DNA of 64,000 nt, from positions 1-64,000 of the forward strand of contig JAVKFU010000017.1 in assembly GCA_040223695.1 (NCBI GenBank), given 5' to 3'. A program made the translations under genes and the position numbers. This DNA is from Deltaproteobacteria bacterium (lineage in GTDB: Bacteria; Desulfobacterota_D; UBA1144; Nemesobacterales; UBA2774). The notes under the pieces were generated by a model, which made no database searches, was not told the DNA's origin, and saw only the letters and a list, made by a program, of their open reading frames with translations. Of the stretch, positions 3,548 to 9,118 are shown one piece after another (the first letter of the stretch is position 1; each line of letters starts with the position of its first letter).

Positions 3548-4150
3548 CTAAGTCTTTTTGAGTACCCTTCGGCCTTCGATACTAATCATCCCTCCGGCGA
3601 CAAGCCTTATTGCTTCGGGATAGATCCTGTGCTCCTCCTCATGAATCCTTTCAAGAAGAGCGTCTTCCGTATCGTCTTCGTGTACCGGCACCACTGACTG
3701 GAGTATTATGGGCCCGGTATCGACTCCTTCGTCTACGAAATGAACCGTTACGCCTGTGTACTTCACACCATACTCGAGCGCCTGCCCGGCAGCGTTTATT
3801 CCGGGAAACGAGGGGAGAAGCGCGGGGTGCAGATTTATAATCCTGTTCTTATAAGCCCTCACGAAAACGGGGGAAAATATTCTCATAAAACCCGCAAGCG
3901 CTATCAGCTCGATTCCGTAGGGTTCGATCGCGCTTAAAACGTCCCTGTCGTACTCCTCCCTGTTCTTATAACCCCTGTGGTCGATCACCTCACACTGAAT
4001 TCCATGCTTTTTAGCCCGCTCCAGGGCATAGGCGCCGGGGTTGTTACTGAAAACAAGCGCAATTTCTACACAAGGAATATCGGCATCGATTATCGCCTGA
4101 AGATTTGTGCCGCTTCCGGAAACAAAAACGGCGAGTCTGGTCTTTTTCAC
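3548..4150 (-). CDS. purN: Phosphoribosylglycinamide formyltransferase (10-formyl-THF dependent)
   Basis: PurN transfers a formyl group from 10-formyltetrahydrofolate to GAR in purine biosynthesis. The 200-residue protein is normal in length. It shows the N-terminal phosphate-binding segment VSGSGTNLQAI, the catalytic-loop region INLHPALLPSFPG (Asn and His of the active site present) and the VHFVDEGVDTGPI signature with the active-site Asp. The start is GTG at 4150 with a GAGG about 9 bases upstream. The gene lies downstream of the 5S rRNA on the same strand, but the T-run after the 5S gene makes cotranscription unlikely. Confidence 0.96.
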   Translation of the reverse strand: MKKTRLAVFVSGSGTNLQAIIDADIPCVEIALVFSNNPGAYALERAKKHGIQCEVIDHRGYKNREEYDRDVLSAIEPYGIELIALAGFMRIFSPVFVRAYKNRIINLHPALLPSFPGINAAGQALEYGVKYTGVTVHFVDEGVDTGPIILQSVVPVHEDDTEDALLERIHEEEHRIYPEAIRLVAGGMISIEGRRVLKKT

Positions 4151-4318: not shown

Positions 4319-4319
4319 C

Positions 4320-4436
4320 CAAGGCAGCTACCTACTTTCCCACTCCCGTACAGGAGCAGTATCATCGGCCTTGAAGAGCTTAACTTCCGGGTTCGGAATG
4401 GGACCGGGTGTTCCCTCTTCAGCATTGCCACCCAGA
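4320..4436 (-). rRNA. rrf: 5S ribosomal RNA, solitary
   Basis: The minus strand carries the conserved 5S core: GAGGGAACACCCGGTCCC, CCATTCCGAACCCGGAAGTT, AAGCTCTTCA and GGGAGTGGGAAAGTAGG. Helix I forms between GGTGGC at the 5' end and GCTGCC at the 3' end. The length of about 117 nt is normal. No 16S or 23S sequence lies on either side: purN is downstream and a recombinase gene upstream. It is therefore an unlinked copy with its own promoter and terminator. The ends are approximate by a few bases. Confidence 0.93.
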
Positions 4437-4447
4437 TTCTGCGATAT

Positions 4448-4475
4448 AAATTACATCAGATATCAAATATGTCAA
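4448..4475 (-). promoter_or_regulatory. Sigma-70-type promoter of the solitary 5S rRNA
   Basis: On the minus strand TTGACA (4470-4475) and TAATTT (4448-4453) are 16 bp apart. The predicted transcript start is within a few bases of the 5S 5' end. This supports the 5S gene as an independent, active transcription unit. Confidence 0.6.
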
Positions 4476-4521
4476 TACTCGAATTTGAATAAAAACAATA
4501 AAAATGCTTTAATTTTTATGA

Positions 4522-5379
4522 ATGGATAAACTTGTTGACAGCTTCATAGAATCGCTCAGGAGAAGAGAGACAACAAAGGAAACATACAGAAAGGCGCTGC
4601 GCGAGTTTTCAAAGTGGCTTGGCAATGTTTCCCCTGCGGGTCTCAACTCAAACGACATACAGCGCTACAAGGACTACCTAATCTCTAAAGATTTATCCCC
4701 GACGTCGATGTCCGCATATTTAACCGCGGTGAGGAGATTCTATGAATATTTAGTCTCGACGGGAAAAATAAACGAGAATCCGGCCAGAAGCGTCAAGGGA
4801 AGCTCGCGTCCCCAAAGGCATCTCACCGATTCGATTTCGCGCGAAGACATCGCAAAACTATTCAGCGTGATCGACCTTAATTCGCCTCTGGGGGTAAGGG
4901 ACGGGGCTATATTAAATCTGATGGCGAGGTCCGGATTGAGCGAAATTGAAATAGTGAGGGCGAACCTCCAGGATCTTAAATCAAGAGACGGCACCAAAGT
5001 GATATACGTACAGGGCAAGAACAAGGATAAAAAAGATGAATAAGTAAGTCTCAGTCCGGGTGTAGAGCAGTCGGTTGAGAGTTATCTGGAGCAAAGAGGA
5101 GACTCGGGCGGGGAGGAACCGCTCTTCTGGGGGATCGGAAACAGGTCGATCAAGGAGAGAATTACGACCCGCGGGATCAGGGCGCGCGTGAATCATTACT
5201 TCGAGCTTTCGGGAATCAAAAAGGAGGGGATAAAACCGGTAAGCCTGAGGCACACAGCGGCAATGCTTGCGATCGAAGAAGGCGCTACCGTTTCGGAAAT
5301 AAAACAGATGCTAAGGCTGAAGACTACCGAATCCGCTCTTGTCTATTTTGAAGAAGCAAAAGAGCTGATGAGAAAGTAA
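4522..5379 (+). pseudogene. Xer-like tyrosine recombinase with an in-frame TAA and lost catalytic residues
   Basis: The reading frame encodes a XerC/D-like protein of about 285 codons: a SAM-like N-terminal core-binding domain (about 1-90) and a tyrosine recombinase catalytic domain. TAA at 5041-5043 (codon 174) stops translation, yet the same frame continues without further stops to 5379 and supplies the rest of the fold, so a single sense codon seems to have become nonsense. Independently, three residues of the catalytic set are missing: the first Arg is Ser (S140 in ARSGLSEIE), the His of the H-x-x-R box is Val (VSLRH), and the third-box His is Leu. The beta-hairpin Lys (K166), the second Arg and the Tyr nucleophile position (ALVYFEE) remain. 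A restart at 5188 would yield only the last 63 residues. A sequencing error could explain the stop but not the missing residues. Confidence 0.8.
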
Positions 5380-5436: not shown

Positions 5437-7029
5437 TCAAGCCTTTTCAAGATAGCTTTTTATCGGATAGACCCTGCCCGCGCGCTTTAATTTCTTTATA
5501 GCCTTTACCTCTATCTGCCTTATCCTCTCACGCGTAACGTTAAACTCATGGCCCACCTCTTCAAGCGTGTGCTCTTTTTCATCGTCTATCCCGAACCTGA
5601 GCCTCACAATGCTTTCTTCTCTCGTGTTGAGCACGGAAGAAAGGGCGTTGCTTATTATCTCCTTAAGCTCGCTCATTTCGAGCACCTTGACCGGAGAAGT
5701 GGTGTTTGAGTCCTCTATAAGATCAACGAGCTTACTGTCCTCTTCGTCCCCTATAGGAGTCTCAAGCGAAATGGGGTCTTTTGAAATTTTAAGCACGCGC
5801 GCGACCTTATCAGCGTGTATACCGACCTTTTCAGCTATCTCTTCAGGCAGCGGCTCTCTTCCAAGCTCCTGCACAAGGAGCCTCGAAGTCCTGACAATCC
5901 TGTTAATAGTCTCAGTCATATGGACCGGGATCCTAATTATTCTGGACTGATCAGCAAGGGCTCTGGTTATCGCCTGCCTTATCCACCACGTGGCATAGGT
6001 TGAAAATTTGTATCCTCTGTTATGTTCGAACTTTTCAACCGCTCTCATGAGTCCCATATTCCCTTCCTGTATCAAATCGAGAAACGGAAGGCCGCGGTTT
6101 ATGTACCGCCTGGCGATACTGACTACAAGACGCAAATTTGACTCTATCAGCTTCCGCCTCGCACTTTGGGTCATATGCTCCCCCAGATCGATTCTTCTAA
6201 GAGACTTCTTGAGCATTAGGGTATTCGCTTCCGCTTCGGCAAGTAAATCCTGCATATTGTCCTGTAATTCCTTTTTTGCCCTCGAAGCCGGGGAGAGCTT
6301 CTTTTTACGGGGTCCTGCATACTGGTTCTTTACCCCTTCCAGCTTGTCTATGTGACTGCGGGCTACCGAGACAATTCTTTCCATCTGAAATCCGTTCAGG
6401 TTTATTTCTTCCATATAAGCCAGCATTTTGTTGTTATTTCTCTTTATTCTCTGGAGGAGGACTTTTTTCTTCTTTTCGCTAACGCTTTCCAGTTCCTTTC
6501 TGAATTGCTCGTTCTCTTCAAAGAGCCTGGTTATAGAGTTTATGGAGTTTCTTATGCCAAGATCCACCTCTTCCTCGACGGAATTATCGGCATCGTCGAG
6601 TGAACTCGTGATATCCCTTATATCCAAACTCCCTTTTTCGAGCTCTTCCGCAAGACTTATTATTTCCTTCAACAAAAGAGACGAACTCAATATCGCTCTT
6701 GCGACGATTCTCCTGCCGGTCTCAATTTCTTTGGCAATACGTATTTCCTGCTCCCTGGTCAGAAGGGAATGGTCGGCTATTTCATGGAGATAAAACCTTA
6801 TTAAGTCATATTCGTTAGCGTTTTCCCTGGCGTTCTTTAAGTTAAAAACGTATTTATTCCCCTTCTCACTTATTTCCTCATCTTCGTCCGCGTTTTCATT
6901 CTCACTGTCCTTAAGGTAAACATTATCGCCCTTTAGCTTTTCGTCCTCTGAAGGTTCGACCGCCGAATCGGATAGCCTGTCCTCCGTGACGCTATCGATT
7001 TGAAAGTCGTTCTTTTTATTCTTTCCCAT
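5437..7029 (-). CDS. rpoD: RNA polymerase primary sigma factor RpoD
   Basis: This is the housekeeping sigma factor. The 530-residue protein has an acidic, low-complexity N-terminus of about 70 residues in place of a clear region 1.1. Region 1.2 follows ([20 protein letters not shown]), then a charged non-conserved insert and region 2 with the core-binding and -10-melting segment ([15 protein letters not shown]). Region 3 ([19 protein letters not shown]) and region 4.2 with the -35-reading helix-turn-helix ([20 protein letters not shown]) are intact. It overlaps the end of dnaG by 14 bp, implying translational coupling in the rpsU-dnaG-rpoD operon. Confidence 0.97.
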
Positions 7030-8791
7030 TAGGCTCTCCCTTCTTCCGGTTTTTTTGTTTCATTAAGTCCGAGTATTCCTTCAGAAGCTCTTTCTCAAGT
7101 AAAGAGTCTTTATTTTTCACCGCTTCATCCATCTTAAGACGTAGACCTTTTAACCCCTCTTCGAGCTTTAGCAGTTTTAATTTGCCTATGCATGAATCGA
7201 TCATTTTGCCCGCCGTTTTCTCATCGGATATTCCCGAAGATGAAAACAGCGCTTCCGAAATAAGACTCTGCGCAGGATTGCCCTGAAAATTTTGTAAAAG
7301 TGACGACGGGTCGTGCACGCCTTTTTCGACAATTTCATCCAGTACGGACTTTACTTCAACGTTGGAAATCAAACCGTGCCAATCATATCCGGCGATTATC
7401 GAAGACAGTTGAGGAAACTTCAAGAGGATGGTAAGCAGCAATCTTTCATGGTTATTCGCTGCGCTGACGGCCCTGGCGTCCCCTATCCCGCCGGGCGCTT
7501 TTTTCCGCTTAATAAGCGAAGAAACCTCGTTTTCCCTGAGCCCGAGCCTTTCGGCTGTTTTTTTAATATAGCTGCTTTTGAGGAGAGGATCATTCACCAT
7601 CATAAGTATAGCTGCAATTTCTCCTACACCGCTTTTTAAAGACATATTGCCGTTTCTGCATTCTCTTATTGTATTTTCTATGTAGAAATCAAGAAGACTC
7701 GGCGAGTTTTCCACCAGGCGAATAAATTCGTCCCCGCCATCCTCGGATAGGAAGGAATCAGGGTCTTTTCCCCCGGGCAATAAAACCACATTAGGCAACA
7801 GACCTTCTTCAAGAAAAATATCAAGCGACCTTACCGCGGCCTTAGTGCCGGATTCGTCCCCGTCGAACACAACAACAAATCTATCGGTATAACGCCTCAA
7901 AATCACCACATGATCGCGCGTGAGCGCAGTTCCCAGCGTGGCAACCGCATTTTTTATTCCTGCCGAGTAAAGAGACAAAAAGTCCGTATAACCCTCGACT
8001 ATTATTGCCCTATTGTTTTTCCTTATGTGGTCTCTCGACTTATCCAGTCCGTAGAAATTCCTTCTTTTGTGATAGATTTCGGATTCGGGAGAATTTATGT
8101 ACTTCGGCTGGTCGCCTTCGCCTTCCACAGTACGGCCGCCAAAACCTATAACCCTGCCTTCGACATTACCGATAGGGAACATTATTCTGTCTCGGAACCT
8201 GTCATAATAACCCTCGCCGTTATTCTTCTTTACGACAAGACCTGTCTTTTCGGCAAGCGTTAGCGGAATGTTGTGCTTTTGCAAATATTTTACAAGATGG
8301 TCCCAGCCCTCGGGTGCATAGCCGAGATTAAATTCTTCTATAGTTTCCGACGGGATTTTTCTGGATTTCAAATAATCCCTCGCAGCCCCGGCTTTCCCGC
8401 TTTTCAGTAAAACCCTTTTATAGAATCCGGAAACCACGGAATTAATTTTTAATAAGGCGCCGGCCTGGGATTTACGCTTGGGACCGACAGTGGGCTTTTC
8501 AACTTTTATATTCGCACGCTTTGCGAGCTCTGATACCGCTTCGGGAAATGTGATGGAGTTATATCTCATGTAAAATGCCAAAATATCTCCGCCGGCTCCG
8601 CAGCTGAAACAATGGAAAAAACCTTTTTCTTCATCCACATGCATAGAAGGATTGTGGTCGTCGTGGAAAGGACAAAGCCCTACGTAACCCTTTCCCACCT
8701 TTTTAATAGATGTGTAATTTTCTATGAGGTCTAAAATGCTCAACCTCCTTTTTATCTCTTTAACAACACCGTCATTGTTAAAATTTACCAT
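7016..8791 (-). CDS. dnaG: DNA primase
   Basis: DnaG makes RNA primers for replication. The 591-residue protein has the CHC2 zinc-binding domain (C40, H43, C61, C64), the RNA polymerase core with the [10 protein letters not shown] and VIGFGGR segments, a TOPRIM fold ([13 protein letters not shown], then [14 protein letters not shown] carrying the metal-binding acidic residues), and a C-terminal helicase-interaction region of weaker similarity. The ATG at 8791 lacks a good Shine-Dalgarno sequence, which fits low primase expression. It is the middle gene of the macromolecular-synthesis operon and overlaps rpoD. Confidence 0.97.
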
Positions 8792-8926: not shown

Positions 8927-9118
8927 CTAGTTTCTTCTCGAGCGTTTTACAATGCGCTTTTTCGCGGCGAAAAGCTTTTTCTTTTTCTTCTCGCTCGGCT
9001 TTTCATAGAACTCCCGTCTTCTGACCTCGGACAGAACACCTCCTTTTTCAACCTGCTTTTTAAATCTTTTAAGCGCACTGTCTATGCTCTCATTGTTTCC
9101 GACCACAATTCCTGGCAT
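8927..9118 (-). CDS. rpsU: 30S ribosomal protein bS21
   Basis: A 63-residue, strongly basic ribosomal protein of the small subunit. It has the conserved family pattern: a start resembling [18 protein letters not shown], then [15 protein letters not shown] and a Lys/Arg-rich tail. The start has a strong CAGGAGG 8-10 bases upstream. It heads the rpsU-dnaG-rpoD operon, with its own promoter just upstream and a probable attenuating terminator downstream. Confidence 0.96.

Follow-up and report, generated by a model that had tools for sequence, protein, structure and literature searches.

A conserved and apparently catalytically dead tyrosine recombinase of Candidatus Dadabacteria, encoded between the 5S rRNA gene and rpoD

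Judged by the residues at its active site, the gene that we call dXer encodes a conserved, catalytically dead tyrosine recombinase in Dadabacteria. All the genomes that carry it, the one studied here included, belong to Candidatus Dadabacteria, an uncultured bacterial group. The gene lies at 4522–5379 on the plus strand of the window (the whole 64-kb stretch of DNA that was analyzed) and has 285 codons plus a stop; here it is split by one in-frame TAA, and 18 intact orthologues were found in other genomes. We propose that dXer is probably a domesticated, vertically inherited protein that binds specific DNA sequences and does not cut them, and that it most likely regulates transcription in the manner of MrpR. 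What was observed directly for dXer are its residue changes, its vertical inheritance in a fixed synteny, selection, a predicted fold, and an empty site in relatives; from its match to MrpR in fold and residues, and from what is described for Cre R173A, Flp R191A, and TnsF, we infer site-specific, non-cutting DNA binding.

The initial annotation held that the reading frame continues past the TAA at 5041–5043 (plus strand), and 4522–5379 does contain this single in-frame stop only. The stretch that can be translated from the normal start, 4522–5040 (plus strand), gives 173 aa, which cover the core-binding domain and the beginning of the catalytic one. The stretch past the stop, 5044–5376 (plus strand), encodes the rest of the catalytic domain, including Arg II and the Tyr nucleophile, and is without decay. 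In profile searches the first half alone matched Phage_int_SAM_1 (2.8e-10), and the second half alone matched Phage_integrase at 2.3e-5 and 24.7 bits, below the cut-off of 27.1. The read-through protein scored 50.5 bits with Phage_integrase (PF00589), above that cut-off, and so has the fold of the tyrosine recombinase superfamily. Because each half matches a recombinase model separately and the read-through score is this high, the frame is far beyond chance.

The break had also been placed at a variable residue. This was wrong, as the column is Tyr in 18/18 intact orthologues. We rejected a recoded stop, since TAA is also dXer's own terminator and a Tyr codon stands at that column in every orthologue. 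An in-frame restart was rejected as well: the only in-frame ORF of at least 60 aa past the stop begins at GTG 5188, and its 63 aa fall far short of what the fold would require. No second copy of dXer was found in this genome (3.03 Mb, 23 contigs, 95.6% complete), where PF00589 gave five places, namely a XerC-like gene, a XerD-like gene, two integrases, and dXer.

The active-site positions were read by alignment on the XerD-like protein of the same genome. That protein has R-K-H-R-H-Y at the six positions, and dXer has S-K-V-R-L-Y. This agrees with the earlier assignment of Ser, Val, and Leu to Arg I, His II, and His III, and Lys, Arg II, and the nucleophile Tyr are kept. Arg I is Ser in 19/19 dadabacterial copies, 18 of which are intact, and Lys, Arg II, and Tyr are retained in all 19. 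The His II column holds Tyr in 13 copies, Ala in three, and Val, Leu, and His in one each; the His III column holds Leu in seven, Val in seven, and His in five, the last being all the copies of family f4. Both His positions are replaced in 13/19 copies. Of the three substitutions whose conservation the initial annotation wished to have checked, Ser is therefore universal, Val occurs in this genome alone, and Leu is shared by 7/19. From this distribution, the loss of Arg I is common to all dXer and the loss of His III is restricted to family f1. Set against the six catalytic residues of an active tyrosine recombinase, dXer keeps Arg I in 0/19 copies, His II in 1/19, and His III in 5/19.

An AlphaFold2 model of an intact dXer orthologue (L065) had a mean pLDDT of 87.6 and a pTM of 0.64, and its best Foldseek matches were XerA and Cre. 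With VIA-align the model matched XerH over 273 residues (Z 18.8, rmsd 8.5), DNA-bound SroF of phage phi3T over 258 (Z 16.6, rmsd 6.8), and MrpR of SPbeta over 255 (Z 13.2, rmsd 15.9); the large rmsd values come from differing domain angles, as expected in two-domain proteins. MrpR (YopR) is described as the DNA-binding master repressor of the Bacillus prophage SPbeta, with a tyrosine recombinase fold and no recombination activity; its Arg I is replaced by Val/Ser, its His II by Asn, and its His III by Val, Lys and Tyr remain, and the Tyr is important for DNA binding (PMC10516654). As far as this description goes, MrpR and the dXer of our genome share a recombinase fold, the replacement of Arg I and of both His, and the retention of Lys and Tyr. 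They differ in that MrpR is phage-borne and has a repeated operator of its own, whereas dXer is chromosomal and vertically inherited. The likeness is one of fold and residue pattern only, since a search of PDB sequences with the dXer profile matched seven at E 0.001 and MrpR was not among them. SroF (PDB 9rd5, 9rgl) is called a repressor in the titles of its entries; its fold resembles the dXer model over the full length, but it is a phage regulator and has 14% identity in the structural alignment.

Single changes of Arg I have been described in Cre (R173A) and Flp (R191A): the sites are still occupied and synapsed, and recombination is absent (PMC4381057). These variants bear on whether dXer could still be an enzyme that cleaves and joins DNA by a non-canonical chemistry without Arg I. 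The retained Lys, Arg II, and Tyr nucleophile, together with His III in the f4 copies, would suit such an enzyme. Arg I is, however, replaced in all copies and His II in 18/19, the Cre and Flp variants bind without recombining, and MrpR keeps the same Lys and Tyr yet is reported to be without recombination activity, so we regard this chemistry as improbable. The initial annotation suggested a DNA-binding or scaffold protein, and by analogy with MrpR this would be the best reading here too.

Two other proteins are comparable to dXer. TnsF of Tn6022 is described as an inactivated tyrosine recombinase domain that is reused for DNA targeting and has a known active relative (PMC10293859). In that description TnsF has 498 aa, N-terminal zinc fingers, and an operon with tniQ, and most of its catalytic chamber is missing; dXer has none of these features, its N-terminal recombinase domain beginning at residue 3–8 and its neighbors being the 5S rRNA gene and rpoD. 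The streptococcal XerD-like protein is a chromosomal Xer-like protein without catalytic residues. The match of dXer to the NCBIfam XerD model that we take to be the streptococcal one was weak (E 0.0058).

In a search of 41 genomes (our own and those of its family and order), dXer was present in 19, and the 18 copies besides ours were 60%–71% identical to it and all without the stop. Across the phylum it occurred in 19/57 genomes, that is, in 14/16 of family f1, 5/7 of family f4, and none elsewhere, and a scan of named genomes gave 15 records that match dXer at ≥60% identity. The f1 genomes without the gene, G003 and G012, both also lack a 5S match, so the locus is probably absent from these assemblies.

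Selection was estimated as NG86 dN/dS in 12 genome pairs, three of which were saturated at synonymous sites. The value for dXer was 0.096–0.159 in eight of the nine measurable pairs, which answers in the affirmative the earlier question of purifying selection on the orthologues; in the ninth it was 0.312 at a dS of 0.06, and rpoD gave 0.349 in the same pair. Where measurable, dN/dS was 0.043–0.349 for rpoD and 0.076–0.215 for dnaG, with dXer slightly above rpoD in most pairs. Despite the loss of Arg I, the dXer protein is nearly as well conserved as the products of these housekeeping genes. With Ser at Arg I in every copy and the intact copies under purifying selection, the earlier inference that recombination activity was lost before, or independently of, the stop stands. 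The view that the gene is now breaking down applies at most to our genome and fails for the group, given its 18 intact orthologues. A plain pseudogene remnant of an integrase, functionless throughout the group, would fit the one stop and the absence of the gene from two f4 genomes (G022 and G028). The intact orthologues, the low dN/dS, and the fixed synteny contradict it, and we consider it highly improbable.

Several measures bear on the age of the stop. The dN between our dXer and its two nearest relatives was 0.197 and 0.208 upstream of the stop, against 0.171 and 0.174 downstream. At the 94 columns that are invariant in the other 18 copies, ours differs twice, at the stop and by one change of Ala to Ser, and its end branch in a tree of 34 proteins is ordinary (0.16). 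Under a simple neutral model of the dXer frame that ignores any selection, 4.7% of single-base changes create a stop, so that 0.1 changes per site would give about four stops, and the probability of none besides the one seen is 0.017. Old decay was rejected on these figures. Because dN does not rise past the stop, only two invariant columns have changed, the branch is ordinary, and further stops would be expected, the stop is young or not real; it is either a recent loss on this lineage or an assembly error.

An error of assembly or consensus, with the gene intact in the living cell, would affect the stop alone and leaves room for a regulatory role of dXer. The dN values past the stop, no higher than those before it, and the near absence of other deviations at invariant columns both fit an error. 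Against it, dXer was the sole ORF with a single in-frame stop among 99 conserved query ORFs, and the number of frame changes was 0. This survey traced 99 conserved ORFs of genome G002 and covered 371 kb of our genome, whose consensus looks clean since no other ORF had a single stop or a frame change. We give the error serious weight, though short of an even chance. Six other ORFs flagged in the survey, each with 2–7 stops, seem to be shadow ORFs of the antisense or overlapping type; the reverse survey flagged 2/103 ORFs in G002.

The neighborhood of dXer is the same throughout. In the window, a lone 5S rRNA gene (4319–4435, minus strand), the only 5S found in this genome, is divergent from dXer, and a gene for a purN-like formyltransferase (3548–4150, minus strand) lies on its far side. 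Downstream, rpoD (primary sigma factor; 5437–7029, minus strand) is convergent with dXer in all 19 genomes, and dnaG (primase; 7016–8791, minus strand) and rpsU (ribosomal protein S21; 8927–9118, minus strand) continue the row. The order 5S(−), dXer(+), rpoD(−) was found in 18/18 orthologue genomes; purN(−), detected in 17 of them, always lies on the far side of the 5S gene, and dnaG(−) and rpsU(−) follow wherever the contig extends far enough. No 16S or 23S gene was found in the 64-kb window alongside the lone 5S. Among 43 genomes of the order, 37 had one 5S gene, one had two, and five had none.

Two observations on rRNA genes are recorded here. A second 5S gene lies near rpoD-like matches in genome G026 (contig C85, L121 4146–4258). 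The 16S match of our genome, at L124 7476–8376 (contig C16), spans model positions 1–1533 in only 901 bases and is shortened or chimeric in this assembly.

We examined nine genomes that lack dXer (G028 and G022 of f4; G020, G039, G029, and G036 of f6; G019 and G023 of f5; G021 of f7). None had a dXer match between 5S and rpoD, and the order and direction of purN, 5S, rpoD, dnaG, and rpsU were unchanged. Since dXer-less relatives have the same row with an empty site, the row rpsU-dnaG-rpoD-5S-purN is ancestral, and dXer was inserted into it in antisense orientation. In a tree of six neighboring proteins, G022 and G028 were sister to the remaining f4 genomes. One gain in the ancestor of f1 and f4 followed by one loss would explain the distribution of dXer; two gains by transfer are less likely, because the position of the gene is identical. 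As the gene was lost from the G022/G028 sublineage or never present there, it is dispensable at least in these bacteria.

The divergent intergenic region between the 5S gene and dXer (4436–4521) is 86 bp long. By our own reading of the alignment of 19, TGTCAA at 4470–4475, a −35-like TTGACA for the 5S gene on the minus strand, is invariant in 19/19. A promoter-like pair for dXer, also our own reading, consists of TTGAAT (4485–4490), a 17-bp spacer, and TTTAAT (4508–4513), 8 bp before the ATG; the TTGAA-like and TTTAAT-like boxes, about 17 bp apart, are conserved less strictly across the 19 than TGTCAA. We read this position as leaderless-like, as the TTTAAT-like box ends about 8 bp before the ATG, a distance that a leaderless mRNA would need. 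A consensus promoter scanner, which applies built-in spacing and base rules, listed none of the TGTCAA, TTGAAT, and TTTAAT sites. The start of dXer lies 82–91 bp from the 5S end in 17/19 genomes and 124–125 bp from it in two.

This arrangement, divergent from a single-copy 5S gene, fixed in 19/19, and so closely spaced in 17, raises the idea that dXer is a dedicated regulator of the 5S rRNA gene and of itself. TGTCAA is, however, also present in the four dXer-less relatives whose 5S–rpoD gap was inspected, so the 5S −35-like element is unchanged there and nothing points to a special operator. Moreover, no operator-like element was recognized beyond the promoters in the alignment of 19, and the Calditrichota relatives of dXer lie at a different place, after dapF and a TPR gene. 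We find such a dedicated role quite improbable.

The origin of dXer was approached through the tree of 34 recombinases, in which the active-site columns were kept in the alignment and for which the program warned of long branches. With this warning, dXer was split from the eight XerC/XerD rows at 100/99. It also fell below both equivalog cut-offs (XerD, 121.8 vs. 329.6 bits; XerC, 111.7 vs. 335.15), and by tree and score an identity as XerC or XerD was rejected. Of the earlier label of a Xer-like paralogue, the recombinase fold holds; a strict XerC/XerD paralogue it is not, as it groups with plasmid-type integrases.

An alternative to a regulator is a protein of chromosome architecture or an accessory of recombination, that is, a non-cutting partner on paired half-sites that would, for instance, modulate XerC/XerD or organize the chromosome. 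Active XerC-like and XerD-like genes in the same genome speak for it, as do Xer proteins that act in chromosome organization without catalysis. It is also favored by the description of Cre without Arg I as still synapsing its sites (PMC4381057). Against it stands the position of dXer outside the XerC/XerD clade, and we rate it as unlikely.

The tree joined dXer, whose dadabacterial clade had 90/86, with two Calditrichota proteins at 99/97, and placed this group at 97/94 with three integrases, two from plasmid records and one from a Bacteroidales locus, in which every catalytic residue is present. Active plasmid-type integrases (for example that of pSMQ-316 of Streptococcus thermophilus) and the Bacteroidales locus L082 are thus the closest sampled active relatives; they are about 30%–37% identical to a dXer orthologue and, unlike dXer, have all six catalytic residues intact. 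Matches of dXer in phage and plasmid records were all below 60% identity. It matched 825 plasmid records, and the four examined (H1, H2, H3, and H10) all had intact catalytic residues. No viral relative was found: a viral_contigs scan with alignment A2 gave eight pattern matches and no relative. The sequence of PDB 9i5v chain 14, named RaiA, matches the dXer recombinase profile; because the matched part is recombinase-like, we took the chain as probably a fused or misnamed XerC-RaiA entry and set aside a link of dXer to the ribosome.

The Calditrichota relatives occurred in two of nine genomes searched (L080 5923–6858 and L081 5935–6879), in both within the same row of a dapF-like gene, a TPR gene, and the recombinase, the two neighbors being named from their translations. 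Arg I is Gly and Cys in these proteins and His II is Leu and Met, and one has Lys at Arg II. A single loss of Arg I common to both phyla is no more than a possibility, because the Calditrichota stem is long (2.06) and Arg I has given way to differing residues. A wider reading is that the two phyla have in common a single ancient chromosomal family of dead tyrosine recombinases without Arg I, vertically inherited and not phage-borne, that would serve as DNA-binding regulators or chromosome organizers of the host, and that in Dadabacteria the divergent single 5S rRNA gene may be under the control of dXer; we hold this to be doubtful.

Under the reading that we prefer, a non-cutting DNA-binding regulator, a plasmid-type integrase would have entered the chromosome of the ancestor of the two dadabacterial families, between the 5S rRNA gene and rpoD. 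The change of Arg I to Ser would have abolished the chemistry of strand cleavage, and the gene would have been kept by purifying selection, its retained Lys, Arg II, and Tyr serving DNA binding and folding. In our genome, the nonsense codon would cut the protein to its first 173 residues and remove most of the catalytic-fold domain.

In the collection of papers covered by our literature search, no publication pairs Dadabacteria with a tyrosine recombinase. As far as our searches reached, dXer is new as a family, and its kind is already known from phages and transposons. The authors of the MrpR study suggest that such recruitment of recombinases is more widespread than thought (PMC10516654). 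In the accounts cited, the dead recombinases of proven function, MrpR and TnsF, belong to phages or transposons, and dXer is a host gene at one chromosomal spot in two families. It also cautions that genes of this sort should not be annotated xerC or xerD. With intact active relatives, an empty site in sister lineages, an invariant loss of Arg I, a stepwise drift of the His residues, and a possible natural nonsense allele, the dXer series would allow residue-by-residue tests of how an enzyme that cuts DNA evolves into a protein that binds it.
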